Below, piece by piece: positions 1 to 12,188 of a stretch of DNA of 40,177 nucleotides. The number at the start of each line of letters is the position of its first letter. The first letter of the stretch is position 1. The stretch is from a virus. Position numbers and translations under genes: made by a program. The notes beneath the pieces were generated by a model. That model made no database searches and was not told where the DNA came from. It was given only the letters and a program-made list of their open reading frames with translations. The stretch is from the IMG/VR virus record IMGVR_UViG_3300009149_000104, positions 1 through 40,177 of that record, one strand, 5' to 3'.

Positions 1-297
1 GAATTGAAAATAGACAATAGGAATACCACGTTCTCCTTTCTTAACATTTCCACCAAGTTCTTTAGCTTGATTATAAGTAAGCCAATACGGTGTAGCTCTA
101 TCTTCAAGTAATGCCTCAAAGAAGTTACAACCTTTATATACTTTCTTACTTATAAAATTTTGAGGATAACCGAATTGAACGGATTTCCAAGGTTTTTTCC
201 AAGGGATTTCCCCTTGTTCTAATTTTTCTAGTATCTTGTCAGTTAGCTGTTGATATACGTCAATTTTAGCTTTCTTTTTAAATGTTTCAATCTTCAT
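1..297 (-). CDS. ArdC-like antirestriction protein, N-terminal domain (partial, runs off left edge)
   Basis: Minus-strand reading frame open from the ATG at 297 to the window edge, 99 codons. The visible protein has the layout of the ArdC N-terminal ssDNA-binding domain: a start-proximal helix followed by GEIPWKKPW, then a YKGCNFF segment, then YWLTYNQAKELGGNVKKGE. In ArdC-family proteins this domain is followed by a zincin-type metallopeptidase domain, which would lie outside the window. ArdC proteins of plasmids and phages protect incoming DNA from restriction. Several in-frame ATGs lie further upstream, inside an acidic repeat of the preceding gene, so the exact start is uncertain. The gene overlaps the zinc-ribbon gene by 11 nt, which suggests coupled translation. 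Family assignment is from motif recognition; whether the protease domain is present cannot be seen. Confidence 0.8.
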   Translation of the reverse strand, partial: MKIETFKKKAKIDVYQQLTDKILEKLEQGEIPWKKPWKSVQFGYPQNFISKKVYKGCNFFEALLEDRATPYWLTYNQAKELGGNVKKGERGIPIVYFQF

Positions 298-436
298 CTT
301 CATCATCATCTTCATCATCATCATGTCCTGCTGGATTATGAATTTTATATCCGCATTCACAATAAACGATAGTTGGATTTTCTTTGTCCTTACCGAAATT
401 ATCCCCACAATCGGGGCATCTTAAATCTACTGCCAT
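287..436 (-). CDS. Small zinc-ribbon protein with acidic tail (49 aa)
   Basis: A 49-residue frame starting at ATG 436. Residues 7-10 are CPDC and residues 26-28 are CEC, which fits a zinc-ribbon knuckle pair. The C-terminal 11 residues are almost only Asp and Glu, encoded by a GAT/GAA repeat. The end overlaps the start of the ArdC-like gene by 11 nt. A minimal Zn ribbon with an acidic tail could be a small nucleic-acid-mimic or transcription-associated protein, but no specific function can be assigned. The start lies 17 nt after the stop of the NUMOD1 gene, and the leader is AT-rich without a Shine-Dalgarno site, as is usual for Bacteroidota. Confidence 0.7.
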   Translation of the reverse strand: MAVDLRCPDCGDNFGKDKENPTIVYCECGYKIHNPAGHDDDEDDDEDED

Positions 437-453
437 ATCATTAATTTTAATTA

Positions 454-858
454 TTAAAAATCGTGGTCATACCACTTTGTTTGTTTGTTTACTATTTCTA
501 CATAATCTTCTTCATACTTAAATATATAGCCTCCAGAATGTTTTCTTTCTCCTTTACAACAGCGCTGAATATTAGAGCCACTTACTTCAAGTACTCTTTT
601 AGCTACAGCTATAGAACTAAATTTAAATACTCTTCCATTAGCTTCAACACTTGTAGCTACAACAGCTTTTTCCCTCTTAGGTGTAACTGTAAATCTTCTT
701 AAAACACTAAGAGATGTTCCAATATCTAAGATTTCTCTATCTATTCTTATTTTCTTTTTTTGAGAAAGCTCAAGATATTCTTCTGAATCAGTATAAATAC
801 TTAATTTAAAGAAGTATACTTCAAGGTCATAACACGTATAAATACTAAATCCTAACAT
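454..858 (-). CDS. NUMOD1-type DNA-binding protein (134 aa)
   Basis: The start is taken at ATG 858 rather than an earlier in-frame codon at 888, because 858 follows the recurring hairpin and AT-rich leader found before many genes on this strand. Residues about 70-118 match the NUMOD1 pattern: a VEANGRVFKF strand, FSSIAVAKRVLEVSGSNIQ (helix-turn-helix-like), then CCKGERKHSGGYIFKY. NUMOD1 modules normally accompany GIY-YIG or HNH homing endonucleases and bind DNA through the HTH. No nuclease motif is visible in the N-terminal 65 residues, so this is either a stand-alone DNA-binding protein or a remnant of a homing endonuclease. It is the last gene after the PRTRC cassette. Confidence 0.65.
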   Translation of the reverse strand: MLGFSIYTCYDLEVYFFKLSIYTDSEEYLELSQKKKIRIDREILDIGTSLSVLRRFTVTPKREKAVVATSVEANGRVFKFSSIAVAKRVLEVSGSNIQRCCKGERKHSGGYIFKYEEDYVEIVNKQTKWYDHDF

Positions 859-875
859 AATTTTGATTTTAAATT

Positions 876-897
876 CAGAGAGCAACAAAGCTCTCCG
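876..897 (-). repeat. Recurring leader hairpin (copy 1)
   Basis: CAGAGAGC-N6-GCTCTCCG, 7 of 8 pairs, in the leader of the NUMOD1 gene that starts at 858. It belongs to the hairpin family described under findings. Confidence 0.55.
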
Positions 898-901
898 AAT
901 A

Positions 902-1654
902 CTATATTTTTATTGGTTTTGTAATACAAGTTGATAGATTCACATATCCACCTTGATGAGTTATTCGATATTTGGTCAATAATGTCCAAATAAGGTTCAT
1001 TCCGGTACTTACCAAAACTGAATTAATAAATAAATCTTGCTTTAATAATGCTTCCCTGGTACTACAACTTGGTGCATCAATATCCTCATTTTTCTCCATA
1101 TCTGAAAACATTTGGAGAACATTTTTTAAGAAATCTACGTTGCTTGGCTTAGGTTGTTCAATATAATTAGATCCTAATACAAACTGTCCAAAATCTCTAC
1201 CATTACCAAAGTCTAACCAATAATAGGGAGTATTAAAATCAGATAATGAAAAAACTCCAATAGCTGCAATTTTTATTTCCTTTCTTGCTTTTACATTATC
1301 AACACAAGAAATAACAATATTAGTGCCTTTCCATACTCTTTTATGGAATTTTTCAGTTACAGCTCTCCAATCTAAACCATAAAATCTATTTAGCCTTGTA
1401 ATGGCTACTACAGATTTATATTGTCCTAAATCAGCTTGAGAGAACTTTTGCCTACCAATATTAGTTTGTTCAATCTTATCATCATCAATAGCGTACACCA
1501 TTAGACCAGGATGATTTAATTGTTGCAAACTACAATGTATTTTTGCTAAGTCGTTTAAGACTTGCGTTCCGTTACCACCTACACCTACTACTGTAACAGT
1601 AATAGGATGTAGAGGTTCCATAAAATATTGTGGTGCATAGTGATAATTAATCAT
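902..1654 (-). CDS. PRTRC system ThiF-family E1-like protein
   Basis: A 250-aa ThiF/E1-fold protein of the PRTRC cassette. Visible motifs are the Rossmann nucleotide-binding loop GVGGNG (residues 24-29), the acidic strand end IDDDKIEQTNIGRQ (D57-D59, N65, R68, Q69) typical of E1/ThiF ATP sites, and CVDN (117-120), where the Asp would bind Mg-ATP. PSCS at 196-199 (C197), followed by a conserved-looking KQDLFIN segment, is a candidate catalytic cysteine. By family, such proteins adenylate the C-terminus of a ubiquitin-like protein and may pass it to a cysteine; the partner would be PRTRC C at 4534-4737. The start overlaps the stop of the 46-aa gene (ATGA), so it is probably translated by coupling. 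Family identity is strong; the activity is inferred. Confidence 0.9.
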   Translation of the reverse strand: MINYHYAPQYFMEPLHPITVTVVGVGGNGTQVLNDLAKIHCSLQQLNHPGLMVYAIDDDKIEQTNIGRQKFSQADLGQYKSVVAITRLNRFYGLDWRAVTEKFHKRVWKGTNIVISCVDNVKARKEIKIAAIGVFSLSDFNTPYYWLDFGNGRDFGQFVLGSNYIEQPKPSNVDFLKNVLQMFSDMEKNEDIDAPSCSTREALLKQDLFINSVLVSTGMNLIWTLLTKYRITHQGGYVNLSTCITKPIKI

Positions 1655-1791
1655 TGTACTTTATATAATTCAGCAGCTTCCTTCATAATAGAAATTACAG
1701 TTATCATTAATTCATGATTACGTAATACATCATTAAAATCAGCCCAATCATTATTTTGTGATATTAAATCTAAACATTCTTGATAATTCAT
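1651..1791 (-). CDS. Small protein between E2-like and E1-like genes (46 aa)
   Basis: A 46-residue frame from ATG 1791 that overlaps both neighbours by the ATGA arrangement: its start overlaps the stop of PRTRC B, and its stop overlaps the start of the ThiF gene. This double coupling is good evidence that it is translated. The sequence looks helical, with NDWADFNDVL and a C-terminal ISIMKEAAELYK amphipathic segment, and has one cysteine (C6). I do not recognise a family. Its position suggests an accessory or bridging peptide of the E1/E2 pair, which is inference from context only. Confidence 0.65.
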   Translation of the reverse strand: MNYQECLDLISQNNDWADFNDVLRNHELMITVISIMKEAAELYKVQ

Positions 1792-2477
1792 ATTAAATCC
1801 CCTATAGTTTTATTAGTAGCTATCAATACATTCTTATCGAATGGTAGCTTACCTTTGATTTGACGATTAATGAAAGTGGTAAGATTTCCTACAATCGGAC
1901 TCTCTCTATTTAAGTGAGAGAATTTAGATTGAAAGAACGCATCTTCCCAAGTTTTCATTATTTTACTTACTTCTTTTGAATTATTAACTTTAGCATTTCC
2001 CATACATACCTTTCCACCACCATAAACATTATGAAATGGTGCATCATATAGTATAGTATCTTCATTAGGATTATTAGTTTTAATAGCCCAAACTGATAGA
2101 TTTGTTCCTTTTAACCTAAATACCAATGCTGGTAGCTTCATTAAGCCATCTTTACATAATCCCTTAGTAAAAGATAAATTCCTTTCAGATGCTTTAATAT
2201 ACCATATTACTGTAGGTTCTGCATTTTCATTATTAAATGCTAATAAGTTTTTAGGAAGTAAACCTTTGCAATATGTTTTTTCTAATGCTACTGGATCTAT
2301 CTTCTCTAATAATTCTGCCAATAGTTTTTTAGTCAGAGGAACTCCCTCTAACATTTGATAGCCATTACTACTTTTCTTTATTTTCCTTGATTCCAAGTAA
2401 TTTTGATTAGAATCACCTTGTTGGTAAACAATAATCGCAGCTGCAGGAACAAAGTCTTCTTTTATAATATTATTCAT
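1788..2477 (-). CDS. PRTRC system protein B (E2-like)
   Basis: A 229-aa protein matching PRTRC protein B, predicted from earlier comparative work to have a ubiquitin-conjugating (E2/UBC-like) fold. The key segment is PALVFRLKG (116-124), then a strand SVWAIK, then the APFHNVYGGGKVCMGN signature at 146-161. C158 sits where E2-like PRTRC B proteins keep their presumed catalytic cysteine, and H149/N150 recall the HPN-like element before it. It would receive the activated PRTRC C modifier from the ThiF protein. It overlaps the 86-aa gene upstream by 8 nt and the 46-aa gene downstream (ATGA). Family assignment is strong; thioester chemistry is not demonstrated here. Confidence 0.88.
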   Translation of the reverse strand: MNNIIKEDFVPAAAIIVYQQGDSNQNYLESRKIKKSSNGYQMLEGVPLTKKLLAELLEKIDPVALEKTYCKGLLPKNLLAFNNENAEPTVIWYIKASERNLSFTKGLCKDGLMKLPALVFRLKGTNLSVWAIKTNNPNEDTILYDAPFHNVYGGGKVCMGNAKVNNSKEVSKIMKTWEDAFFQSKFSHLNRESPIVGNLTTFINRQIKGKLPFDKNVLIATNKTIGDLI

Positions 2478-2730
2478 AAAAATCTTTCATTATTTTATCA
2501 GCATAATAAAATGTTGAACTTTCTTCAAGATAGTTCTTCATTTCACGCCTCTCGTTTTTATCAAATATTTTTACTTCTCTTTCATTGGTAGTCTTATAAT
2601 CACAAAGAACTACTTTTAATACTTGATTCTTGTGTACAGTTACTTTTACTGTACCATAATAGCAACACTCTCCAATATGGTAAGTCTTGCTTTGTTTACC
2701 TGTTAATTTTACTTCTTCAATTCCGAACAT
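2470..2730 (-). CDS. Hypothetical protein in PRTRC operon (86 aa)
   Basis: An 86-residue protein overlapping the genes on both sides (14 nt upstream, 8 nt downstream), hence tightly coupled in the cassette. It begins with a strand-rich half (HIGECCYYGTVKVTVHK), with adjacent cysteines C22 and C23, and ends with a charged helical half. I do not recognise a family. It lies where other PRTRC cassettes may carry additional components, between proteins F and B. Confidence 0.7.
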   Translation of the reverse strand: MFGIEEVKLTGKQSKTYHIGECCYYGTVKVTVHKNQVLKVVLCDYKTTNEREVKIFDKNERREMKNYLEESSTFYYADKIMKDFYE

Positions 2731-3181
2731 GTGGTTGGTTTTTACATAAATAATCTCTTACTGTAAATAATATTTCATAAGAGCTATCATATCCAGCTCT
2801 TGAACAGTAAGTTTTAACGTGCTCATAATCATTATCCCTACCTTTAGTAAGAATATAACCATGAATAATTTCTCTATCTCTATTAAAATGTCTTACTTTA
2901 TAAAGAATATGTTTTGATTCTCTGTCAGCCATTGAAACATGATCTCTCATACAAGTAGGAATATTTTCATTGAAATTTTTAGTTAAATCCCAATTCTGTA
3001 AATATCCTAATGGCCTATCTTCAAATCCATTATGATTATCAGTATAAGCTCTAATACAGGCTCCATTTAATGTGTTAGCTACAATGTTTCCAGTACTAAT
3101 AATATTAGTCTGTTTATCAAAGGTTTTATGACCTGTATTAATTTTCATTTTATTGGGATTTTCCCATTCAATTTTTCTCAT
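2717..3181 (-). CDS. Hypothetical protein in PRTRC operon (154 aa)
   Basis: The start is set at ATG 3181 (MRKIEWEN), because the upstream part of the open frame runs through the leader hairpin at 3203-3226. The protein is alpha/beta-looking and polar, with a central ACIRAYTDNHNGFEDRPLGY segment and the pattern HFNRDREIIHGYILTKGRDN. It has no metal-binding HxH...D JAB motif and no nucleotide loop, so it is not the missing PRTRC protein A by motif. Function unknown; its place between PRTRC F and B suggests a cassette component. Confidence 0.7.
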   Translation of the reverse strand: MRKIEWENPNKMKINTGHKTFDKQTNIISTGNIVANTLNGACIRAYTDNHNGFEDRPLGYLQNWDLTKNFNENIPTCMRDHVSMADRESKHILYKVRHFNRDREIIHGYILTKGRDNDYEHVKTYCSRAGYDSSYEILFTVRDYLCKNQPHVRN

Positions 3182-3202
3182 AGGGTGTAGTTTTATTAAT
3201 AA

Positions 3203-3226
3203 CAAAGAGCCACTAAGGGCTCTCTG
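3203..3226 (-). repeat. Recurring leader hairpin (copy 2)
   Basis: CAAAGAGC ... GCTCTCTG (7 of 8 pairs), 22 nt before the ATG at 3181 and just after the stop of the PRTRC F gene at 3229. The following leader is TTATTAATAAAACTA-like, as in other copies. Confidence 0.55.
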
Positions 3227-3228
3227 TA

Positions 3229-4341
3229 TCAATATAGTCTTGCAACTTCTTGTAAATTATTCAATAGGTATATCCATTCATAAGGAAAATAAGATTCTTC
3301 TTTATCTTCTTCATTCATTTCTATCCATCTAAACGGTAGTGCTCCATAGTTTTCCCAATTTATTTGAGTATTCTGACTATCGTACCGAGAATAAGGGTCA
3401 TCATCATCCTCATATCTCCATCCAATAGCACAATAATCTGAGGGCATTACTGGACATCCATCATTAAATTCTTCTTCAGTAGCGTGGTAAAAATCCCAAA
3501 ATTTAGTTTCAGGATATTTAGCAAGTAACTTTAAAGCATTTTCAATAAATTCTTTACAAGATTTTTCTTTGTTGTTTTTAGGCTTGAATAGTTTATAAAG
3601 CTTCATATTAAAAGATGAGCCTTTAATATCATTCTCAACTATTTTGTAATTACCAGTTTTATATTCCTTTATATAATCCTTGTAAATTCTAATAGCTTTT
3701 TTATCTCTATCCGCACCTTTCATTTCAAGCATTTCTCTCAACTCTTCTTCAACCATTTCGTCTGTATAATCATTATCAGCATTCCAAAAACAAGGAACAT
3801 TAAATTGACCATGTAAAAGACCTATTATTCCTACCATTAAATCATACAGCATAGGATTTTCTTCTTTAATTGTAGGATAGAAATCTATACCTACAGAATG
3901 TCCTCCTTCTGCTATCTGATAATCATACATTCTTTGAATACCCTCATCTTCTATTGACCATATTGCTTCGCTATGAATTTCTTCATAACAACGGAACATC
4001 CAGTCAAGGAAATCTATTGGATCTGTATTCTCATTAAATGATTTAGAGTGTAGGAATATAGATATATCATCTTTCATTATTGGATATAACTTTTTAATCA
4101 AATCAATAGGACTTACTCCATTTTGGAACAAACCTTTTTCATTTAAGTAATCCAATTTTAAAGACTTTATATCTCTTATACTATTGGTTGTAAGAAAATT
4201 GACATAGGTAATACTCTTTCCTTTTGCTCTCCTATTCCTTGTGATAGGTTGCTTTTGGTTTCTTCGAGAATTATTGATACTATTGAACTGTGAAATGCTT
4301 TGTCTATCTTGTTTTTTCTTTTTGCGGGTTTCTGTTTGCAT
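3229..4341 (-). CDS. Probable PRTRC system protein F (370 aa)
   Basis: A 370-aa protein in the position expected for PRTRC protein F, after E and C and before B and ThiF, with a fitting length. The first 45 residues are very basic and Gln/Arg/Lys-rich; the rest is acidic and aromatic, with a tract CAIGWRYEDDDD near residue 305-317 and a C-terminal YFPYEWIYLLNNLQEVARLY region. I see no enzymatic motif. PRTRC F has no known function. The assignment rests on order, length and general appearance rather than a signature motif. A short out-of-frame ATG-ORF at 4176-4370 overlaps its start and is not called. Confidence 0.6.
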   Translation of the reverse strand: MQTETRKKKKQDRQSISQFNSINNSRRNQKQPITRNRRAKGKSITYVNFLTTNSIRDIKSLKLDYLNEKGLFQNGVSPIDLIKKLYPIMKDDISIFLHSKSFNENTDPIDFLDWMFRCYEEIHSEAIWSIEDEGIQRMYDYQIAEGGHSVGIDFYPTIKEENPMLYDLMVGIIGLLHGQFNVPCFWNADNDYTDEMVEEELREMLEMKGADRDKKAIRIYKDYIKEYKTGNYKIVENDIKGSSFNMKLYKLFKPKNNKEKSCKEFIENALKLLAKYPETKFWDFYHATEEEFNDGCPVMPSDYCAIGWRYEDDDDPYSRYDSQNTQINWENYGALPFRWIEMNEEDKEESYFPYEWIYLLNNLQEVARLY

Positions 4342-4369
4342 ATGAAATCGTAAAATTGGTTAGCATTCA

Positions 4370-4531
4370 TTATTCATTAATTTTTAAGTTTAGATAATCT
4401 TGTACCATATGGCATTCAGAACTATGTCCAATTTTTTCACGAACATAATCTTCCCATCCATTTTGAGGTTCATCTAAAACTTCTTCTACTATTACTTCTC
4501 CGTTTTGATAATCTAAAATAGTTAGCCACAT
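4370..4531 (-). CDS. Small acidic protein between PRTRC C and F (53 aa)
   Basis: A 53-residue frame starting 2 nt after the stop of the ubiquitin-like gene. It opens MWLTILDYQNGEVIVEEVLD (a beta-hairpin-like start) and ends in a polar helix containing EKIGHSSECHMVQDY. Tight spacing on the upstream side and good protein-like composition support translation. I do not recognise a family. Confidence 0.65.
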   Translation of the reverse strand: MWLTILDYQNGEVIVEEVLDEPQNGWEDYVREKIGHSSECHMVQDYLNLKINE

Positions 4532-4533
4532 AT

Positions 4534-4737
4534 TTATCCTTTTGTTCCTACTGATGTAGTAAATTCATATTGTAATGCATCATTTACAACAGTTGGTCCT
4601 GTTACGTGAGCATTTGTTAGCTCTGGATATTGATTAGAATAAAAATCAAGCACATCGTCTTTCGATATACTTTCATTTGGATCCTCCAATACAACATCTT
4701 TATGTTTAAATACTCTTTTTAGTTCTGTTACCTCCAT
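4534..4737 (-). CDS. PRTRC system protein C, ubiquitin-like modifier (67 aa)
   Basis: A 67-residue protein with the recognisable PRTRC C layout: TELKRVFKHKDVVLEDP (residues 4-20), then the helix with YSNQYPELTNAHVTGP (33-48), and the end YEFTTSVGTKG. This family was predicted to adopt a ubiquitin-like beta-grasp fold. The C-terminus is G64-T-K-G67, so a terminal glycine is exposed without processing, as needed for activation by an E1-like enzyme. One nucleotide separates its start from the stop of PRTRC E, and the E2-like and E1-like genes follow downstream on the same strand. Identity is strong; conjugation to targets is an inference from the family and neighbours. Confidence 0.92.
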   Translation of the reverse strand: MEVTELKRVFKHKDVVLEDPNESISKDDVLDFYSNQYPELTNAHVTGPTVVNDALQYEFTTSVGTKG

Positions 4738-4738
4738 C

Positions 4739-5878
4739 TTATCCTAATATTTCAATATTATTACTTGCTGGAGCTATTGGAGCTTCAGCTTTAACTTCTG
4801 CATTAAAATCCTTTTCACGTTGCAACATTTCTTGATGCCTCATCTCCTTTTGTACTTGTTCTTCCTCAGCCATTTCTTGCATATCCGATTTAGGTTCTTC
4901 AATAGGAGTAGCACTTGGCTGAGTTGCTGCAGGATTATCTGCTATAGTTTCTGGATTGAATACTAACCAAGAGTTTAATCTTATAATGTATTCTTCCATA
5001 GGCTCCATATCCATTCTTGTAGGCTTAGGAGTTCCAGCTAAACTAACAGGTTTATTATCTGAAGTTATTTGACTAACTTGAGGCGCTACTACAATATTTT
5101 CTACTATTGTAGGCTTCATACCTTCAGGATTGTTATCGTAAAGCTTAACTTCTGGAATAATATCTGCAACAACGGGAACAACAACTGGAGCAACCACAAC
5201 ATCAACAGGAGCAACAAATGCTTCAACTTTCTCTTGTTTTTCAGGAGAAATAGTTTCAGGAGTTGCCAATGCTGGACCTTGATTTGTTTGAACTAATATA
5301 TTGGCCTCATCAATTATTTGAGGTTCACCAGTTTTAACTAATTCTTCTTGAGCTTTTTCAATAATTGGATCAGCCTTTACTTCTTCAACTACTGCAAATA
5401 TATCAGGAGCAGTTTCTGCCTTATGTTTAGCTAATAAATCAAGAGCCTTTTTGTACTCTGGTGCAATTTTCAATGCTGCCTCAATTTTCAATACTGCTGC
5501 AGGAATCTTATCTTCTTTAATTAGCTTGTCTGCTTCATCTAAGAATTTATCTGCTTTATCAGTAAGTTTCTTAGATTCATCTTTCTTAGCCTTAGTAATA
5601 GCATTATCTGCTTCTGTTTTTTCTACTGCTCTTTCAAATTGAATAAGATTTGTAGATATTCCTGATACTTTTTGTAACGGTTGTTGAATTATTCCTGCAA
5701 ACTGTGCATCTAATTCTTCAGCCGTACCTTTTAATAAAATAGGAGTAATATTACCTTTCGCTTCATCCTTACAAGTAAGTTGAGGAAACACAGATACTAC
5801 CAATCCTGTTTCATTTTTACTGATTACGATATTTAAATTCATACCGACTAAGTGTTGTTCAATACTTTTAAAAAACAT
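4739..5878 (-). CDS. PRTRC system protein E (379 aa)
   Basis: The start is set at ATG 5878 (MFFKSIEQHL), the typical PRTRC E beginning; an upstream extension to 5917 would run through the hairpin leader. Residues 1-70 are the conserved head, with NIVISKNETGLVVSVFPQLT and ILLKGTAEELDAQFAGII. A Lys/Asp/Glu helix region follows (about 75-140), with a TPR-like ALKIAPEYKKALDLLAKHK element. A long Val/Pro/Glu low-complexity linker (about 145-330) and a Glu/Gln/Met helix near the C-terminus complete it. It is the first gene of the E-C-F-B-ThiF block. Its role in PRTRC is unknown; the long flexible linker suggests a scaffold or a modification target. Confidence 0.85.
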   Translation of the reverse strand: MFFKSIEQHLVGMNLNIVISKNETGLVVSVFPQLTCKDEAKGNITPILLKGTAEELDAQFAGIIQQPLQKVSGISTNLIQFERAVEKTEADNAITKAKKDESKKLTDKADKFLDEADKLIKEDKIPAAVLKIEAALKIAPEYKKALDLLAKHKAETAPDIFAVVEEVKADPIIEKAQEELVKTGEPQIIDEANILVQTNQGPALATPETISPEKQEKVEAFVAPVDVVVAPVVVPVVADIIPEVKLYDNNPEGMKPTIVENIVVAPQVSQITSDNKPVSLAGTPKPTRMDMEPMEEYIIRLNSWLVFNPETIADNPAATQPSATPIEEPKSDMQEMAEEEQVQKEMRHQEMLQREKDFNAEVKAEAPIAPASNNIEILG

Positions 5879-5903
5879 ATTTATAATTTTAGGTGTATAA
5901 TAA

Positions 5904-5929
5904 CTAAAGAGCCACAATGGGCTCCTTAG
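5904..5929 (-). repeat. Recurring leader hairpin (copy 3)
   Basis: CTAAAGAGCC ... GGCTCCTTAG, 9 of 10 pairs, in the leader of PRTRC E. A tandem TTAGTAAGGTA-like duplication follows at about 5926-5947. Confidence 0.6.
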
Positions 5930-5950
5930 TAAGGTACTTAGTAAGGTATT

Positions 5951-6616
5951 CTATCTACCTTCTAATTCATATTTAGCCATGCTTCCATTGATATAACATT
6001 TAGCATTTTCTTTAATGAGTTTTAACCTTTCAGTTTTAGTAGCTATAGACTTAGCTAACTCTCCACCTACTTCATCAATAACTCTTGCTAATGCCAAGGC
6101 TTTCAATTCAGTGAAATCTCTTAATTCATCCCCCCAACGTGCAACAACATATCGCTTTACGTTAGTTTCATAAGCAATGCCATCATTTTCAGGCTGAGCC
6201 TTACATTCTTCTTTAGTATCGAAATACCTTGTAGAATTATCCTCATTTTTAGAATTGTTGTAATACTGAGAAGTAATTCCTACAACAATAGGATCTGGTT
6301 GCTTATCATCAGCCCAAATCATTATTCTATTAAAGTGTTTCTCTTTTACTGAGAATGCAATTTGTTTTAATATTTCTAATGGAATAGCTGTATTCTTATA
6401 ATCTTTAAAATTAGTCTTATTTGGACATAGGGTTTCATATACTCTTTCCATTCCTTCGTTCATGTATGGATAGGGTATTGGACTATTATCTCCTGTTGAG
6501 AGTCCTAATTGACCTTCCATTCCTAATTCTTTTGCTGTTGCTTTCCATTCATCTAATGATTCTACATCAAATGCAATGTCTGAAAGCTCTTTGTTAAACA
6601 TATTTTCTACCATCAT
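5951..6616 (-). CDS. Hypothetical phage protein (221 aa)
   Basis: A 221-aa soluble acidic protein directly upstream of the PRTRC cassette. Two ATGs stand at the start (MMVENMF), preceded by a TAAATTTG box (6637-6644, minus) 20 nt before the ATG. Central features are IMIWADDKQPDPIVVGI and RYVVARWGDELRDFTELKALALARVI. No catalytic motif is evident. It resembles a small-molecule or protein-binding early phage protein, but I cannot name a family. Confidence 0.8.
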   Translation of the reverse strand: MMVENMFNKELSDIAFDVESLDEWKATAKELGMEGQLGLSTGDNSPIPYPYMNEGMERVYETLCPNKTNFKDYKNTAIPLEILKQIAFSVKEKHFNRIMIWADDKQPDPIVVGITSQYYNNSKNEDNSTRYFDTKEECKAQPENDGIAYETNVKRYVVARWGDELRDFTELKALALARVIDEVGGELAKSIATKTERLKLIKENAKCYINGSMAKYELEGR

Positions 6617-6636
6617 TTATTGGGTTTTAGTTAATA

Positions 6637-6644
6637 CAAATTTA
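6637..6644 (-). promoter_or_regulatory. Possible -7 promoter box
   Basis: TAAATTTG on the minus strand fits the Bacteroidota TAnnTTTG element, 20 nt before the ATG at 6616. No convincing -33 TTG is seen at the right distance, so this is weak. Confidence 0.35.
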
Positions 6645-6646
6645 AA

Positions 6647-6677
6647 CAAAGAGCACCAAAGAACGAAGTTCTTTAGT
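6647..6677 (-). repeat. Recurring leader hairpin (copy 4, variant)
   Basis: CAAAGAGC begins the block and a second stem ACCAAAGAAC-GAA-GTTCTTTAGT (9 of 10 pairs) follows, between the genes at 6699-7061 and 5951-6616. Confidence 0.5.
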
Positions 6678-6698
6678 ACCCTAAGTTATCCTCTTTTG

Positions 6699-7061
6699 TT
6701 AAGAGGTTCCTCCACCCAATATTGTGTCAATTCCATTTAGATTCCTACTGATAGCATTTACTCTCGCATTGATGCTTTCTCTATAATCATCTAAGTCTTT
6801 TTGTGTCGTAGCTATAAAATAGCCATCTGAAGTTGCCACAATATTTCTAATGATTCCTGTTGATCTAATAAAATTCAATATCTTTCTCAATCGAGGTCCA
6901 GATATTAAATGTCCTTCAATTCTTAGTTGCTGACACATTTTTGCATTTTTAATTGCGTTCTGTTTACCAACTCTTTTAACTATTCCTTGTATTACTCTTG
7001 GAACAATTTTCTTTTCTTGGTCTGTTAATTCGTGAGTATATAATTCCCAATTGATAATCAT
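6699..7061 (-). CDS. Probable winged-helix/HTH protein (120 aa)
   Basis: A 120-aa basic protein whose start overlaps the stop of the RadC-like gene (ATGA). Residues about 45-90 read as a winged helix: QLRIEGHLISGPRLRKIL (HTH-like), NFIRSTGIIRNI, then a wing ATSDGYFIATT. The C-terminal part is a helix ending in a GGGT tail. Such domains are common in phage early proteins that bind DNA or recognise a partner. The coupling with the JAB-like gene suggests that the two act together. No named family is recognised. Confidence 0.75.
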   Translation of the reverse strand: MIINWELYTHELTDQEKKIVPRVIQGIVKRVGKQNAIKNAKMCQQLRIEGHLISGPRLRKILNFIRSTGIIRNIVATSDGYFIATTQKDLDDYRESINARVNAISRNLNGIDTILGGGTS

Positions 7062-7507
7062 AATATTCCTTCGTCTGTAAATGAATAAAACTTATCTGCA
7101 GTTACAATAATATGGTCCAACAAATCAATTCCAATTGCGTGACAACCAGCTTTAAGCTCTTTTGTTATAGAAATATCCATATTACTTGGATTGAGATTTC
7201 CGCTTGGATGATTGTGTGATATAATGATTGATGTAGCTCCAGTATTTAAAGCTGTTACTAATACCATTCTTTTATCAATTATGGTTCCTGTAATACCACC
7301 TTGGCTAACTTTAAACCAACCAATAGTATTATTCACTCTATTTAAAAATAGAACTATAGCGCTTTCACAATATTCAATGGTATCAGCATCATAAAGTTTT
7401 TTCAATAAATCATATGAAGTTCTGGAGTCTGATATTTTAACTCTTTGGGTTTCACCTGATTTATATTTTAATGTTATTTCCGGTAATTTACTTTTAAGTA
7501 AAGTCAT
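7058..7507 (-). CDS. RadC/JAB (MPN) domain protein
   Basis: A 149-aa protein made almost only of the RadC/DUF2466 JAB domain. The metal motif is intact: E48 in CESAIVLFLNR, then SHNHPSGNLNPSNMD with H98, H100, S102 and D111, followed by LLDHIIV and a YSFTDEG end. JAB/MPN domains in ubiquitin-like systems are Zn-dependent isopeptidases that trim or remove the modifier. The RadC group's own activity is not firmly known. The helix-hairpin-helix region of full-length RadC is absent. In this window it is the only candidate for the deconjugating component of the nearby PRTRC cassette, where canonical cassettes have the JAB-type protein A. It overlaps both neighbours by ATGA junctions. Confidence 0.88.
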   Translation of the reverse strand: MTLLKSKLPEITLKYKSGETQRVKISDSRTSYDLLKKLYDADTIEYCESAIVLFLNRVNNTIGWFKVSQGGITGTIIDKRMVLVTALNTGATSIIISHNHPSGNLNPSNMDISITKELKAGCHAIGIDLLDHIIVTADKFYSFTDEGIL

Positions 7508-7710
7508 AGTTCAACGATTCTACATTCATCAGCTAAATCATCAATAGATATTTTTGTTCTAATAACTACCTCTTTGTAGTAATATCCTTGAGCCCTATAT
7601 TTATCTACGAACATACGAATAGCTTGTTCAGCTTCTTCCTTGTTTTCGTATTGCTTTAGAACTTCTATTGGCATACCATCAGGTCCTATTACTATAGATT
7701 TATTTGTCAT
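7504..7710 (-). CDS. Hypothetical protein coupled to RadC-like gene (68 aa)
   Basis: A 68-residue protein whose TGA overlaps the ATG of the RadC-like gene. It starts MTNKSIVIGPDGMPIEVL and contains an amphipathic helix ENKEEAEQAIRMFVDKYRAQ followed by a strand YYYKEVVIRTK. Function unknown; the overlap suggests stoichiometric expression with the JAB protein. Confidence 0.75.
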   Translation of the reverse strand: MTNKSIVIGPDGMPIEVLKQYENKEEAEQAIRMFVDKYRAQGYYYKEVVIRTKISIDDLADECRIVEL

Positions 7711-7731
7711 ATTATTTAAGTTTTAATCATT

Positions 7732-7986
7732 TTATGATTCTTGTCTCCAGTCCCAAGGTTCCATATCATCAAATGCATCACGAAAATCCATCTCATCGTG
7801 CATCATTTGGGCTATGTCTCCTCTTGGTTGAAGAAATTCTTGCAAGCGTATCTTTTCGGCATTAGCTTTAGCTGTTTCAATGTTGCGGAGTACCATCTTG
7901 AATGCATTGCGGACGTGGTTATCATCCATATCATCTACATTCATTTTTTTACCGTCTTTGGTTGTCCAATATACGTCTTTACTCAT
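7732..7986 (-). CDS. Hypothetical protein (84 aa)
   Basis: An 84-residue highly charged protein (MSKDVYWTTKDGKKMNVDDM) with a helical middle and an acidic, Met/Asp/Trp-rich C-terminus. The opening 'Y/WTTKDGxxM.i.dM...Hl.n' pattern is common in small phage proteins of unknown role. Its start overlaps the stop of the 50-aa gene upstream. Confidence 0.75.
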   Translation of the reverse strand: MSKDVYWTTKDGKKMNVDDMDDNHVRNAFKMVLRNIETAKANAEKIRLQEFLQPRGDIAQMMHDEMDFRDAFDDMEPWDWRQES

Positions 7987-8135
7987 AAGTCTTTAATTAA
8001 GTCCTCAACCTTATTATTCATATCGATTCTAATACGATTTACTTGAGAACGATTGTGCATTCTATTTAACATAATGTTTAAATAATGAGAAATCATATAG
8101 AAATCTTCTCTTGCTTTACTAAATGTTTTTATCAT
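7983..8135 (-). CDS. Small helical basic protein (50 aa)
   Basis: A 50-residue frame starting at ATG 8135, with its TGA overlapping the ATG at 7986. It is mostly helical (KAREDFYMISHYLNIMLNRM, then RSQVNRIRIDMNNKVEDLI). It has the leader hairpin at 8163-8187 and an AT-rich leader before it, which supports expression. No family recognised. Confidence 0.65.
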   Translation of the reverse strand: MIKTFSKAREDFYMISHYLNIMLNRMHNRSQVNRIRIDMNNKVEDLIKDL

Positions 8136-8162
8136 TTTATATTATTTAGGTGGTTAATAAAA

Positions 8163-8187
8163 AGAGCATCTAAAAGTAGGTTGCTCT
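8163..8187 (-). repeat. Recurring leader hairpin (copy 5)
   Basis: AGAGCA ... TGCTCT stem, 28 nt before the ATG at 8135, within the shared leader arrangement. Confidence 0.45.
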
Positions 8188-8383
8188 GTATTAAAATTAA
8201 GTATAAATATTCTATTGGCCCCAAAGCACTTATGTGTGCTCACTGTCGTATGTTTATAGTCTAAAATAACTGATTCATAAGGGGGTTTATTTCCAATGTG
8301 TTTTTATCCCTTCTCCTTATGATGCAGTTAATTCCAGCCAATTCGGTAATACAAGTTATACCTTCTCAGTAGAATATTTAATA
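8188..8383 (-). ncRNA. Candidate non-coding RNA or leader between two hairpins
   Basis: About 200 nt between hairpins at 8163-8187 and 8384-8412 has no usable start codon followed by an ORF on the minus strand. It contains an 8-bp inverted repeat TCATAAGG ... CCTTATGA around 8272-8320 and a small GCAC-N6-GTGC hairpin near 8226-8240. It sits where every other interval in this gene train holds a gene. A structured transcript is possible; nothing identifies a known RNA family. Confidence 0.3.
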
Positions 8384-8412
8384 CTAAAGAGCCACAAAGT
8401 GTCGCTCTTTAG
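8384..8412 (-). repeat. Recurring leader hairpin (copy 6, perfect 9-bp stem)
   Basis: CTAAAGAGC ... GCTCTTTAG, 9 of 9 pairs, 7 nt after the stop of the lipoprotein gene. Unlike the other copies, no gene follows directly on the minus strand. Confidence 0.65.
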
Positions 8413-8419
8413 TTATTAT

Positions 8420-8860
8420 CTATTCAATACTGGCTGTACTATTGTATTCAATCTTAGTCTGAAAGGTATAATCGCCCTCTTCATTTTGATACATACAAGC
8501 ATTTCTCTCTTTACTGCCATCGAAATCTATATCAACATATTCAAGATATGCTCCAGGATCTCCCGATTTAATATGAATAACCTTAGTCTTTCCTTCATCA
8601 CTAACAAATACTATTTGATAGTTAAGATTAGTGGCCAATCGCATTCGGTATTTAGTAGATATTTTCTTGGTATCTACTTTGGTCCAATCATCAGAACTAT
8701 CATCTTGACTATAAACAGTGATGTCTGCATTATGGTCATTTACTATATTACCTTTAATTTTAAGGTAATCATTACTTGATTGGGCTGAGCAACTGCCTAC
8801 TAAGACTGCTCCAAAAATTAATAATACGGCAAATATTGCCATTGCATTTTTTACTTTCAT
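8420..8860 (-). CDS. Predicted secreted protein or lipoprotein (146 aa)
   Basis: The start is set at ATG 8860 (MKVKNAM), after the hairpin leader; a 13-residue upstream extension is unlikely. An N-terminal basic patch is followed by the hydrophobic core AIFAVLLIFGAVLVGSC. LVGSC is an acceptable lipobox for a Bacteroidota lipoprotein, with SAQSS after the Cys; cleavage after CSA by signal peptidase I is the alternative. The rest is beta-rich and acidic (DYLKIKGNIVNDHNADITVY; YLEYVDIDFDGSKER). A phage-made surface lipoprotein could act in superinfection exclusion, which is inference. No family recognised. Confidence 0.75.
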   Translation of the reverse strand: MKVKNAMAIFAVLLIFGAVLVGSCSAQSSNDYLKIKGNIVNDHNADITVYSQDDSSDDWTKVDTKKISTKYRMRLATNLNYQIVFVSDEGKTKVIHIKSGDPGAYLEYVDIDFDGSKERNACMYQNEEGDYTFQTKIEYNSTASIE

Positions 8861-8888
8861 AATTAAATGATTTAAGTTAATAATAAAT

Positions 8889-8942
8889 TCAAAGAGCAAT
8901 GAAGCCCTTTGAAATGAAAGCAGTGACTCTTTGATATAAATA
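8889..8942 (-). repeat. Recurring leader hairpin (copy 7, with alternative pairing)
   Basis: CAAAGAGC at 8889-8896 can pair with GCCCTTTG (8903-8910, 7 of 8) or with CTCTTTG (8936-8942, 7 of 7). These are two mutually exclusive stems in front of the lipoprotein gene. Confidence 0.5.
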
Positions 8943-8956
8943 TCTCAAGTATGTTC

Positions 8957-9292
8957 CTATAGTTTAACCGAATTGATTCCATCTCCAAATATATCTGAAG
9001 CTCTCAATACAATTCCATTGTAACTAAACATTAAATACTTATCTCTAACAAATGGTTTAACCCATACGCTAAAATTCTTTTCTTTGGGTGCAAAGAAATT
9101 TGATGCTAATTGTATTCTAACTCTCTTGATATAATGCCCTTGCATCTCTACCATTGCATTACCTCTACGATTTACCCTATAGAGTAGGTTATTCATTAAT
9201 TCACTTCCAATCGTTGGTTTACGGCTTTTTATTTTAACCGATTCCACACATTTTAGGCTGTTTTCTTCGAGTAATTCCATTAATTTGCTCAT
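8957..9292 (-). CDS. Hypothetical protein (111 aa)
   Basis: A 111-residue basic protein. The N-terminal helix (MSKLMELLEENSLKCVESVK) is followed by a strand-rich part with NFFAPKEKNFSVWVKPFVRDKYLMFSYNG. The leader ATTATTAACTTAAAACTA matches that of neighbouring genes. Function unknown. Confidence 0.75.
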   Translation of the reverse strand: MSKLMELLEENSLKCVESVKIKSRKPTIGSELMNNLLYRVNRRGNAMVEMQGHYIKRVRIQLASNFFAPKEKNFSVWVKPFVRDKYLMFSYNGIVLRASDIFGDGINSVKL

Positions 9293-9359
9293 TGTCCATA
9301 GTTTTAAGTTAATAATTTCCCTCTCACGATTCTTACAAAAGATGTATATAATAATACTA

Positions 9360-9644
9360 TCACAAATACCTATTCTGTACTTGCCTATGTATTTCTTGAA
9401 TTAAAAATGGATCACTAATAATATCTTTAATATTCCAAACATTTAATCTTAAATAATATTTCCATCTTTTTATTTTGTGCTTTTTCATCCAGTCTATTGT
9501 TTCTAAACTTACTCCCGGATTGTTCTCAAGCCTTTTAATGTAGATAGCTAACTGGATATTCCAATCATCTGCAAGTCCATTAACATAACCTACTCTTAGT
9601 ATTGTAAATAACAACACAACTAACACTATTGTAAACTCTACCAT
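9360..9644 (-). CDS. Small membrane-anchored protein (94 aa)
   Basis: Residues 3-22 form a hydrophobic segment (EFTIVLVVLLFTILRVGYVN) consistent with one membrane anchor, followed by about 70 polar, basic and Trp-rich residues. It has no lipobox. It is the gene immediately after the strong terminator at 9721-9754, so it may have its own promoter, but no clear TAnnTTTG box is visible. Function unknown. Confidence 0.7.
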   Translation of the reverse strand: MVEFTIVLVVLLFTILRVGYVNGLADDWNIQLAIYIKRLENNPGVSLETIDWMKKHKIKRWKYYLRLNVWNIKDIISDPFLIQEIHRQVQNRYL

Positions 9645-9720
9645 CTTTTAATTCTTTAAGTAAATAATTGATTTCAGTCTTTCCTTTGGCTTAACTACTT
9701 TAAACCAACATACCCTAATT

Positions 9721-9754
9721 AAAAAACGAGCCTACTAAGTTGTAGTAGGCTCGT
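9721..9754 (-). terminator. Rho-independent terminator (minus strand)
   Basis: Perfect 12-bp stem ACGAGCCTACTA-AGTTG-TAGTAGGCTCGT followed, on the minus strand, by six T residues. It ends the unit containing the 214-aa gene and therefore divides the leftward genes into at least two transcription units. Confidence 0.9.
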
Positions 9755-9762
9755 TTGTGTTA

Positions 9763-10407
9763 TTAAAGTTTAGGCTCGTTAATAGAAACAAGTTGTTGAA
9801 AACCACGAGTGGTATCCATTTTTGTTTCTAAATAGAATGTTTCTCCAACAAATCCCTGCAACGCAGTTATTAAATTGGTAATGTATTCTTTAGGATTAAC
9901 AAATCTGATAGCAACACGAGTATTGTTATCATCATCAGCCCAAATAAATGTTACATCATCTCCATAATTAGCTCTAATTACTGCTAATTGTTCGTTAGTT
10001 GTAAATTCAATAGGTGCTAACATTGGTGTACCGTCTGCATTCATTAAAGCAACTCCATTTTCATCTGCTACAGGTTGTGCAACATATTCAACAGGATTAC
10101 CTAATTGCATAAATAATGCTTTAGCTTGTTCATTTTTAGAATGTTTAGCTATGTAAACGATTTTACCAAATACTCTTAAAAATCTTGCTCCCTCTGACAT
10201 ACTCACGTATTCATTATGACCATAAGATTCATCATTTGGTTTAGCTTTACTTTGGAAGCTAATTAATGCACAATCATTACCTTTCTTAGATAAATGAGGC
10301 ACTACTGCTTTAATTGTTGCTAAACCATTTGGCATAGATACTTTAGTTGTGTCTGAAGTGTTAGCTAATGCTCCTGCTCCAGAAAAAAATGCATTTAAAT
10401 CTTTCAT
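9763..10407 (-). CDS. Hypothetical early protein, possibly nucleic-acid-binding (214 aa)
   Basis: A 214-aa protein starting MKDLNAFFSG after a 15-bp-stem leader hairpin. Codon choice is rich in GCA/GCT and the product looks soluble and beta-rich: ATIKAVVPHLSKKGNDCALI, FLRVFGKIVYIAKHSKNEQA, then DDVTFIWADDDNNTRVAIRF. The strong hairpin leader and strong terminator suggest an abundant transcript, as for phage ssDNA-binding proteins, but no OB-fold signature or acidic tail is evident, so no function is assigned. Confidence 0.8.
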   Translation of the reverse strand: MKDLNAFFSGAGALANTSDTTKVSMPNGLATIKAVVPHLSKKGNDCALISFQSKAKPNDESYGHNEYVSMSEGARFLRVFGKIVYIAKHSKNEQAKALFMQLGNPVEYVAQPVADENGVALMNADGTPMLAPIEFTTNEQLAVIRANYGDDVTFIWADDDNNTRVAIRFVNPKEYITNLITALQGFVGETFYLETKMDTTRGFQQLVSINEPKL

Positions 10408-10436
10408 TGTATTTTATATTAGTTTATAATAAATTC

Positions 10437-10472
10437 AAATAGCCACAAAGCACAATCGCTTTATGACTATTT
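10437..10472 (-). repeat. Recurring leader hairpin (copy 8, 15-bp stem)
   Basis: AAATAGCCACAAAGC ... GCTTTATGACTATTT, 13 of 15 pairs, 30 nt before the ATG at 10407. This is the longest stem of the family. Confidence 0.65.
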
Positions 10473-10477
10473 ATTTA

Positions 10478-10582
10478 CTATCCAAATAGTATCTCTAACT
10501 CGTTAATAGTTAAATCACAATCTAATAAATACTGTTGTCTTGCTATATCTTCCATTGGTATGAAGTTTATGTTATTCAACAT
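10478..10582 (-). CDS. Very small protein (34 aa)
   Basis: A 34-residue frame, MLNNINFIPMEDIARQQYLL then DCDLTINELEILFG, starting just after a leader hairpin and ending 5 nt before the next one. The hairpin-gene-hairpin spacing and the well-formed acidic helical sequence are the only evidence. Function unknown. Confidence 0.5.
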   Translation of the reverse strand: MLNNINFIPMEDIARQQYLLDCDLTINELEILFG

Positions 10583-10591
10583 TAAATAACA

Positions 10592-10612
10592 AAGAGCCCA
10601 AAAGAACTCTTA
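10592..10612 (-). repeat. Recurring leader hairpin (copy 9, weak stem)
   Basis: AAGAG(C) ... (A)CTCTT, 10 nt before the ATG at 10582. Confidence 0.4.
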
Positions 10613-10626
10613 GATATTTATAAAAC

Positions 10627-10863
10627 CTACAATAGTTTAAATTCAACAATAGTTCTTTGTTCTTCAAATGTATCGTTAGGAAATTCTAATAAGAATATAA
10701 TTTCTTTGTGCCCATATTCTTCTTGAATTATATTAGTACTAATAACATGTTCAGGATATAATTCAAAAAAGAATTCAATATAATGATTAATTAAATCATT
10801 AAGATTAGGACTAATAAAATATAGGTCAACATGATGGTCTTTTTCTAAAGCATAATAAATCAT
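10627..10863 (-). CDS. Hypothetical protein (78 aa)
   Basis: A 78-residue acidic protein (MIYYALEKDHHVDLYFISPN; FLLEFPNDTFEEQRTIVEF). It is the first leftward gene after the 1-kb gene-poor region and has a perfect leader hairpin at 10887-10908. Function unknown. Confidence 0.75.
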   Translation of the reverse strand: MIYYALEKDHHVDLYFISPNLNDLINHYIEFFFELYPEHVISTNIIQEEYGHKEIIFLLEFPNDTFEEQRTIVEFKLL

Positions 10864-10886
10864 AATTTATAGTTTTAATTAATAAT

Positions 10887-10908
10887 CAAAGAGCAATAAA
10901 GCTCTTTG
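10887..10908 (-). repeat. Recurring leader hairpin (copy 10, perfect 8-bp stem)
   Basis: CAAAGAGC-AATAAA-GCTCTTTG, followed on the minus strand by ATTATTAATTAAAACTA and the ATG at 10863. This is the best match to the family consensus. Confidence 0.65.
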
Positions 10909-10960
10909 GATAATTACTCATTAATTATCAAATGCAACCAACATTATGTGGCTAACATAT

Positions 10961-11294
10961 CGTGTGTTTATTATTGTACTGCGATAACACACGACTAATC
11001 GTTATCAGTACTCAATCAAGGCATATACTCCTTGATAAACAATGGCATAGAATTGAATTATTCCAATCCCCCCTCCTGTGCATAGTTTACGTCTACAAAT
11101 CGGATTCCGTTTACATCATTTCGAGATGGTTAGCTTTGCTCTGTACTAACAAGTGATTTTGGCCATACATCACGTCTGATGCACAATCACTTTAATTATG
11201 AAATAAACTACGTATCATAACCTACGTTGTACTGTGTTATATAACTACTATCTAACCGTTACTCGTTAGATACAGACGTACATAGTTTTATTTC
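10961..11294. repeat. Series of inverted repeats (multi-hairpin region)
   Basis: Stems seen: CGTGTGTT/AACACACG (10961-10993), overlapping CGATAAC/GTTATC (10982-11006), ATCAAGG/CCTTGAT (11015-11036), AAGTGATT/AATCACTT with a nested CATCA/TGATG (11151-11192), and an outer GAAATAAA...TTTTATTTC pair enclosing TCTAAC/GTTAGA (11200-11294). The first two overlap and exclude each other. Confidence 0.6.
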
Positions 11295-11326
11295 AACTAT
11301 TACCTGCAATGATTAAATTAATAATC

Positions 11327-11362
11327 AAATAGCCTAAAAGAACTTATGTCTTATACTCTATT
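11327..11362 (-). repeat. Weak copy of the leader hairpin (copy 11)
   Basis: CAAATAGCC followed after 25 nt by CTATT, with an ATTATTAATTTAATC leader on the minus strand as in other copies, but no start codon follows; instead the multi-hairpin region begins. Confidence 0.35.
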
Positions 11363-11371
11363 CGTATGCAA

Positions 11372-11442
11372 TCGTTTGTAGTCGTTTGTAGTCGGATAAC
11401 ACCATTCTAATACACCTATCCGAATGTAGTCGTTTAATGTCG
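11372..11442. repeat. Iteron-like repeats with flanking palindrome
   Basis: TCGTTTGTAG is repeated in tandem at 11372 and 11382, with a third related unit TGTAGTCGTTT at 11425-11435 and a TGTCG at 11438. A TCGGATA/TATCCGA inverted repeat (11392-11423) lies between them. Short direct repeats of this kind often bind replication initiators. Confidence 0.5.
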
Positions 11443-11528
11443 TATATTAATACAATGCTAATCAATTACTTACAATCCTACTTAACATAATAACTTGCAA
11501 CTGTCACAAATATCGACTAACTTCGTCG

Positions 11529-11545
11529 TCTAAGACTGTCTAAGA
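11529..11545. repeat. 17-bp direct repeat, left copy
   Basis: TCTAAGACTGTCTAAGA; one mismatch to the copy at 11874-11890. Each copy itself contains two TAAGA units 10 bp apart. Confidence 0.6.
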
Positions 11546-11873
11546 CAACACAAGCCAATCGCCCACAACTGATACATTCTCAACAACATCAAACAACAAC
11601 ATTTCCTACACAACACTAACATAGTTATTCATACCATTTACATAGAGGAAAAATAGTCCTCCTGTCCTCTTGGTAGAGAGTTAAATGATATGAAATGTGA
11701 ACGAATAGCAGTAAAGGAATTGATTTTGGTTTCATTTTTGAATATGAATTAAGAATTAAGGGGGCTATGTTTCTTTTTTGATTGGGGTATGGGGTTTAAT
11801 AGTAGATAGTCTTCTCTCTCTTCTCATCCATCAATAAAATAATCTTTTAATTATATAGTGCAACGGATACTAT

Positions 11874-11890
11874 TCTAAGACTGTTTAAGA
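11874..11890. repeat. 17-bp direct repeat, right copy
   Basis: TCTAAGACTGTTTAAGA, followed by another TATAAGACTAT at 11894-11904, just before the first rightward gene. Confidence 0.6.
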
Positions 11891-11939
11891 AAGTATAAGA
11901 CTATGGGGTGGATTGTATCTTTTTATTATCTTTGGTTGT

Positions 11940-12152
11940 ATGAATACGTGGCATAATTTGATATGGGGTATTGACATTCAGGAGAACGGGGGGTTGTTTT
12001 ATGTAAAGGTATGGGCCAGGGGTAGTTCGGAACCGGAGTATGGTTATTATTATCACGAGTGGGTTATGTATGATAGGGAGGAAGTTTTTGCGTATGCTGA
12101 TTGGTGTGATATGTATTGTGATGGGATGATTCATAGTTTATTAATAAAATAA
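11940..12152 (+). CDS. Possible small protein rich in Trp/Tyr/Asp (70 aa)
   Basis: A 70-residue frame from ATG 11940 to a TAA at 12152, with a sensible amino-acid mix (GSSEPEYGYYYHEWVMYDRE; YADWCDMYCDGMIHSLLIK). A TTG start 27 nt upstream is possible but less likely. A TATCTTTG box at 11927-11934 lies 5 nt before the ATG, similar to the spacing seen at other genes here. It is the first rightward frame after the gene-poor region. Family unknown, and translation is not certain. Confidence 0.5.
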   Translation: MNTWHNLIWGIDIQENGGLFYVKVWARGSSEPEYGYYYHEWVMYDREEVFAYADWCDMYCDGMIHSLLIK

Positions 12153-12156
12153 TAAT

Positions 12157-12164: not shown

Positions 12165-12188
12165 GTATTCAATTTAAAACAAATAGAT

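Follow-up and report, generated by a model that had tools for sequence, protein, structure and literature searches.

Introduction

What use does a phage have for a set of genes resembling those of ubiquitin conjugation? The question is raised by a PRTRC cassette at positions 902-7507 of IMG/VR record IMGVR_UViG_3300009149_000104, a stretch of 40,177 nucleotides that was analysed whole and is referred to here as the window. An earlier reading made from the sequence alone (the sequence-only reading) had described an E1-like ThiF protein, an E2-like protein B, a ubiquitin-like protein C, a protein E and a RadC/JAB protein on one strand; all five genes were located, on the minus strand. We report that the cassette, with the gene order E-C-F-B-ThiF, is a fixed trait of a clade of crAss-like phages, and a tentative account is weighed in which it works at the replication fork.

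Composition of the cassette

Searches with the PRTRC hidden Markov models (HMMs) placed ThiF, C and E above the cut-offs, and B above its Pfam cut-off. ThiF (902-1654, minus strand) scored 222.9 bits against TIGR03736 (cut-off 144.75). The GxGGxG motif (residues 24-29) and the catalytic C197 named in the sequence-only reading were verified directly, and D57, N65, R68/Q69, K80 and D119 accompany them. The E1 nucleotide-site residues and C197 are invariant among nine aligned phage and plasmid homologues; among 168 homologues GxGGxG was found in 163, NxxRQ in 166 and the cysteine motif in 165. The closest solved structures are the E1 enzymes of NEDD8 and ubiquitin, and models of thiamine-type adenylyltransferases were matched as well.

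Protein B (1788-2477, minus strand) matched Prok-E2_D (PF14460) with 114 bits (cut-off 25) and TIGR03737 with 131.3 bits, just short of the cut-off of 131.45. C158, on which the E2-like assignment had been founded, is present, and N150, the C158-x-G160 pair and H188 were verified directly. P147, N150, C158 and G160 do not vary across 70 diverse homologues, and H188 is conserved in at least 90% of them. Comparison with eukaryotic E2s using hhalign gave 69.5% (E 4.2e-5; reversed control 0.4%). The alignment pairs N150 with the HPN asparagine and C158 with the catalytic cysteine. The order of strands and helices in the AlphaFold 2 (AF2) model of B is consistent with an E2.

Protein C (4534-4737, minus strand) has 67 residues and ends VGTKG with a free glycine, as the sequence-only reading had it. 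It matched TIGR03738 (75.8 bits, cut-off 45.95) and Prok_Ub (PF14454, 94 bits), and the C-terminal glycine is present in 143 of 146 homologues; no sequence match to C was found in the PDB. Through family membership a UBC fold is predicted for B and a beta-grasp fold for C.

Protein E (4739-5878, minus strand), likely starting at the ATG at 5878 rather than the TTG at 5917, scored 54.6 bits against TIGR03741 (cut-off 37.95), in agreement with its earlier assignment, and 105.8 bits against PF19556. It consists of a conserved N-terminal domain, a TPR-like hairpin (judged by eye) and a long low-complexity tail. Protein F (3229-4341, minus strand; 370 residues, mostly alpha-helical) had been called probable. 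An iterative HMM search started from the window F alone collected 154 proteins, almost every one of them occupying the F position in a Bacteroidota PRTRC locus, which upholds the assignment by position and family. Window F did not match TIGR03742, so membership of that model is unsupported, and a profile comparison with the F proteins of non-Bacteroidota plasmids and phages was non-significant. It is therefore the Bacteroidota-type F, which is either unrelated to the other F proteins or diverged from them beyond detection.

Fixation in a crAss-like clade

Judged by its crAss-type terminase (phrog_6681), portal (phrog_6547), major capsid protein (MCP; PF23898, 184 bits) and muzzle (PF25731, 318 bits), all from profile searches of the window, the virus is a crAss-like phage (Crassvirales), which sharpens the earlier and correct description of a virion-carrying genome. 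The terminase, portal, scaffold-position and major capsid genes lie at 16229-22911 on the plus strand; the virion genes, muzzle included, occupy the plus-strand half of the window and the early genes the minus-strand half. The window virus has these MCP, muzzle, terminase and portal families in common with Flavobacterium FpV4-like and gut crAss-like phages. Its MCP is 27-29% identical to those of the named Crassvirales phages listed. A point of difference from Crassvirales is that three phage records gave a ThiF match and none of them is crAss-like.

Capsid relatives of the window phage were collected from IMG/VR as 54 contigs. Those of the clade that reach the locus carry E-C-F-B-ThiF followed by DnaB, an HU-like protein, a Sak4-like annealing protein and a protein at the SSB position. 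In a scan seeded with DnaB, and hence blind to PRTRC, every one of the 14 contigs that extend 1.5 kb or more upstream contained ThiF. The sample is modest, since several of these contigs were already known from the ThiF or capsid scans and L282 represents the same phage as the window. The clade carries the cassette as a fixed trait.

Within the clade, ThiF proteins can be as little as 46-47% identical. NG86 ratios of nonsynonymous to synonymous substitution (dN/dS) are mostly 0.06-0.35, as calculated for close pairs, those with near-zero dS being uninformative; by these ratios the phage cassette is under purifying selection. The order E-C-F-B-ThiF was found in 117 loci. Because of gene order, catalytic residues and low dN/dS, the phage set would appear to be a functioning system, as these three together indicate. 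A relic or chance assembly is rejected on the same evidence together with the blind scan.

Viral and bacterial rows are mixed in the ThiF tree, and the clade ThiFs fall into two or three clusters. A recent single transfer from a bacterium, which was also considered, is counted against by this tree, with some uncertainty owing to long branches. Two contigs from Bacteroidetes metagenome-assembled genomes (L109 and L131) carry C-F-B-ThiF-DnaB and resemble fragments of phages or prophages that were binned as bacterial.

Replication genes around PRTRC loci

Every gene lying up to 8 kb from any of 164 PRTRC loci was included in a clustering with no families preselected. Outside the core, DnaB (in 36 loci) and the sliding clamp of DNA polymerase III (in 28) formed the commonest clusters, followed by a topoisomerase, mostly in bacterial loci. 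With a clamp HMM 31 loci were positive, and in 21 of these dnaN lies upstream of E in the same orientation, with a gap of 0-33 bp. For 20 tips of the ThiF tree, such adjacency implies no fewer than 14 changes. Public annotation places a clamp gene close to PRTRC in five non-Bacteroidota plasmids, from Xanthomonas, Azospira, Pseudoalteromonas, Aeromonas and Pseudomonas, the last with 3.6 kb in between.

The peptide by which partners bind the clamp is Q-aliphatic-x-[L/M]-[F/L], and it commonly sits in a disordered or C-terminal tail; substitutions are tolerated at position 2, and without the glutamine binding is weaker but not always lost (PMC11139829). Peptides of this appearance (QVDMF, QVDLF, QVDIF, QPDMF, QEDLF, QGAIF) occur in clade E proteins, mostly near residues 150-170. 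Qxx[LMI]F was found in 29 of 88 non-redundant E proteins of Bacteroidota type, against 5.5 (standard deviation 2.3) in shuffled sequences and 5 for the mirror pattern in the same proteins. In the E tails alone there were 25 against 2.2 expected, and Qx[DS][LMI]F occurred 20 times against 0.6. No excess of Qxx[LMI]F was found in F, B, ThiF or DnaB. Among the distinct clade E proteins listed, all except those of the window and L189 have Qxx[LMI]F. The peptides thus give a signal resembling a clamp motif that is strong at the level of the family and weak for the window E.

Proposed mechanism and alternatives

In the mechanism proposed here, ThiF would adenylate the exposed C-terminal Gly67 of C and hold C as a thioester on C197, from which C would be handed on to C158 of B. 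Protein B, with E and F as adaptors, would conjugate C to targets. This chemistry of an E1-E2-ubiquitin-like protein (Ubl) relay, read from family membership and residues, is probable. Recruitment to the replisome would fall to protein E, which in many family members would dock on the beta sliding clamp by a clamp-binding peptide; this clamp would be encoded by the element itself if dnaN belongs to the operon, and by the host in the crAss-like clade. Docking on the clamp, suggested by neighbourhood and by motif statistics in relatives, we regard as close to an even call. The likely targets would be the clamp or proteins gathered by it, and the tag would steer the exchange of polymerases and partners in the favour of the phage. 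The account as a whole, an E1-E2-Ubl relay at the replication fork that E docks on the sliding clamp and that acts on the clamp or on proteins bound to it, is the best supported of those weighed and is put forward tentatively.

In eukaryotes, modification of PCNA controls polymerase and partner exchange. A wider version, in which PRTRC would be the bacterial counterpart of that modification, tethered by E to the beta clamp and tagging the clamp or clamp-bound proteins to capture replication, and would form a core replication module in crAss-like phages, is at present doubtful. If true, it would mean ubiquitin-like control of a replication clamp outside eukaryotes, exerted by viruses and plasmids.

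Several points weigh against the clamp-docking account and its relay. In its strict canonical form the clamp motif occurs 7 times in the E proteins where 1.2 would be expected, enrichment is absent for the broadest form, hexamers included, and the strict motif was found in none of 14 non-Bacteroidota E proteins, several of which end ..LF. The motif was spotted by eye before counting, and the broad pattern, based on literature, was picked afterwards. Window E itself has a degenerate APDIF at 157-161, in which the glutamine is missing. No clamp gene was found when one was sought in the main crAss-clade contigs, and since phage early genes cluster, replication genes would to some extent be expected nearby in any case. 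The AF2 models of B (pLDDT 91.7) and F (pLDDT 83.8) gave no PDB match, for B at a threshold of E 0.001, and the profile of C showed no similarity to ThiS, MoaD and ubiquitin. No substrate or conjugate of C has been seen, and the targets named above are candidates.

The sequence-only reading had suggested virion, host or defence proteins as targets. These gained no specific support, and neighbourhood and motif evidence favour replication proteins. The main rival to docking on the clamp is nevertheless counter-defence, in which the cassette would tag and disable host defence proteins early in infection alongside ArdC and a DNA methyltransferase. The N-terminal part of an ArdC antirestriction protein (PF08401, 96 bits) lies at 1-408 on the minus strand and continues off the window, a full-length copy is present at 11162-12175 of contig L002, and ArdC follows shortly after ThiF in part of the clade. 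A DNA methyltransferase gene is close to the cassette, and PRTRC is spread across plasmids, bacterial genomes and phages, as expected of a tool that helps mobile DNA to settle. In G021, G019 and most other PRTRC loci no ArdC was found next to ThiF, whereas replication genes recur, and PADLOC showed no defence signature except a weak generic E1 similarity. Counter-defence is rated unlikely.

The Bil system tags virion proteins. A related role for PRTRC, with C placed on proteins of other phages or plasmids so as to guard the niche of the carrier, is quite unlikely: the cassette is fixed in the replication module of the crAss-like clade and not in a variable region, and no recurrent companion effector or sensor gene was found. 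This is so even though PRTRC is on many plasmids and anti-phage Ubl conjugation exists (CBASS, PMC10097602; Bil as summarised in PMC11354881).

The match of ThiF to thiamine-type adenylyltransferases, and a C that has no profile match to ubiquitin, would also suit sulphur or acyl carrier chemistry, with ThiF and C acting like ThiF and ThiS in the modification of a small molecule or nucleotide and with B no ligase. Some phages do modify nucleotides. This reading is improbable, since C ends TKG and not in the GG of ThiS and MoaD, B with its E2-like N...CxG active site is always present, and the scanned recurrent neighbours include no sulphur-transfer or biosynthetic enzyme apart from a radical-SAM cluster in 12 loci. 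An aid to partition or maintenance brought from plasmids (ParB-linked, as in the PRTRC name) and minor for lytic growth would suit the many Pseudomonadota plasmids in which a PRTRC ParB adjoins the cassette. This reading is likewise hardly probable, since no ParB was seen in clade cassettes or Bacteroidota plasmid loci, and the phage cassette is under purifying selection. Near the window cassette no ParB was found among open reading frames (ORFs) and family matches, no TIGR03734 search of the contigs having been made.

The removal arm and the tail of C

The RadC/JAB protein (7058-7507, minus strand; PF04002, 120 bits) has an intact JAMM motif, and E48, H98, H100 and D111 (HxHPSG), as listed in the sequence-only reading, were verified directly. 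The gene lies three genes upstream of E and encodes a JAB family other than that of PRTRC A. RadC gave 11 matches among the surveyed PRTRC loci and was detected in 5 of the 42 PRTRC virus records; the 71-kb relative G018 lacks it. It is an accessory gene outside the conserved cassette, and as a general part of the system it is rejected as cognate deconjugase.

PRTRC A, the cognate JAB protein (TIGR03735), was found neither in the window nor in G001, G002, G018, G019 and G021, and it is present in one of the 42 PRTRC virus records. None is annotated in the Bacteroidota plasmid loci compared; PRTRC A is therefore not required for the Bacteroidota form of PRTRC. Of the conjugation-and-removal pathway suggested earlier, the conjugation gene set is supported, with every conjugation residue intact and under purifying selection, but the removal half is not, given these counts for RadC and PRTRC A.

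Among the loci compared, a C with residues after the glycine occurs only in PRTRC A-bearing systems (L299, L302, L304, BgVeeders33 and L266), while systems lacking A make C with the glycine already exposed. A simple reading of the JAB role is offered by this contrast: PRTRC A would mature tailed C. The window phage would need no such step, nor a JAB protease, because its C is produced in mature form and the phage has no cognate JAB. In three A-bearing systems C is untailed, and A is therefore not only a maturase.

Comparison with known systems

The PRTRC system (NCBIfam TIGR03734-TIGR03742) in its Bacteroidota form, found in Tunicatimonas and Parabacteroides plasmids and in B. thetaiotaomicron, has the same proteins, order and catalytic residues as the phage set. 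In both, C ends GxKG and neither PRTRC A nor ParB stands alongside. In B. thetaiotaomicron E is BT2645, and B and ThiF are BT2648-BT2649. The phage cassette differs from those of Bacteroidota plasmids in being fixed beside DnaB/Sak4 and in its extra small ORFs, and the ThiF proteins are 38-44% identical. The Tunicatimonas plasmid also carries a second ubiquitin-like system (multiubiquitin, ThiF and DUF6527; L106 15059-17259), about 7 kb from PRTRC.

In 2006 Iyer, Burroughs and Aravind (PMC1779556) predicted that operon type 6d encodes a ubiquitin-like system. As given in the part of that paper dealing with it, type 6d shares with the phage set a Ubl with a C-terminal glycine, an E1 and an alpha-helical protein (F), its E2 likewise lacks the usual histidine and has one downstream, and B. 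thetaiotaomicron is included. The same part describes an adjacent JAB with a JAB-N domain, a JAB family that the phage set is without, and there draws no link with replication or a clamp. No paper assigning a function to PRTRC or type 6d was found in the open-access literature.

Conjugation by bacterial E1, E2 and Ubl proteins, often on mobile DNA, is known also from Bil, CBASS Cap2/Cap3, DUF6527/multiubiquitin and E1-E2-JAB systems. Their E1 and E2 families and architectures differ from those of PRTRC, and against PADLOC and NCBIfam models there was weak E1 similarity only.

The ThiF search of IMG/VR returned 203 contigs, of which 80 were kept. Terminase_6N was matched in 10 of the 42 PRTRC virus records examined; one further record, G084, is crAss-like, and some of the remaining virus-filed records may be plasmids or integrative elements. 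The cultured Burkholderia gladioli phage BgVeeders33 (L059/OK665841) encodes E, C, F, B, A and ThiF at 25952-30438, named in its record 'hypothetical protein' or 'dinucleotide-utilizing enzyme' with no PRTRC label, and has capsid, tail, terminase and DnaB genes. Like the window phage it is a tailed phage with E, C, F, B, ThiF and DnaB. It differs in being Mu-like-tailed and not crAss-like, in having PRTRC A and in a C with a 62-residue tail after GTKG. The earlier remark that PRTRC is unusual in a phage needs qualifying: the cassette is in every clade contig that reaches the locus, in other terminase-bearing contigs and in BgVeeders33. A search of the open-access literature found no relevant paper on phage PRTRC or on crAss-like phages with ThiF or ubiquitin.

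What is new is the fixation in a crAss-like clade, the presence in a cultured phage, the missing JAB arm with a matching feature of C and the link with the sliding clamp. Clade fixation, a cultured carrier and adjacency to dnaN turn 'function unknown' into a testable question about E and the clamp. Separately, Bacillus phage KLEB27-3 (217 kb) has a PRTRC_A-domain protein beside a ThiF-family gene (L060 3476-5726), whose product is 27.7% identical to the window ThiF.

Other features of the window

Four small ORFs on the minus strand interrupt the cassette. The 46-residue ORF at 1651-1791, taken from the ORF list, overlaps B and ThiF, and the gene at this place differs among relatives. The 86-residue ORF at 2470-2730 has no convincing family match and the 171-residue ORF at 2717-3232 has none; neither was found in more distant relatives. 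For the 53-residue ORF at 4370-4531, between C and F, G018 has a homologue of 35% identity in the corresponding position. Upstream of E, G018 has a 428-residue protein without a Pfam match (L088 4802-6088), and other clade members carry other genes there.

Further into the early module, a 214-residue protein to which no function is assigned (9763-10407, minus strand) is conserved in the clade, with homologues in G018, G019 and L206-L210, and gave no PHROG match. Between ThiF and ArdC a small I-HmuI-like NUMOD-domain protein is encoded (454-888, minus strand), which may be what is left of a homing element or its targeting part. Contigs L002 and L004, both from metagenome 3300024262, match the two halves of the window phage at 99-100%; L002 reaches about 14 kb beyond the left end of the window, and the extra DNA holds replication genes.

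A tRNA-Met (CAT) gene lies at 13124-13198 on the plus strand, near the border between the early and late gene blocks. Terminator-like hairpins number 23 in window positions 1-15700, against 5.1 expected. Several of those on the minus strand between early genes have a common GAGC...GCTCTTT-like core, as if the early region were split into short transcription units.

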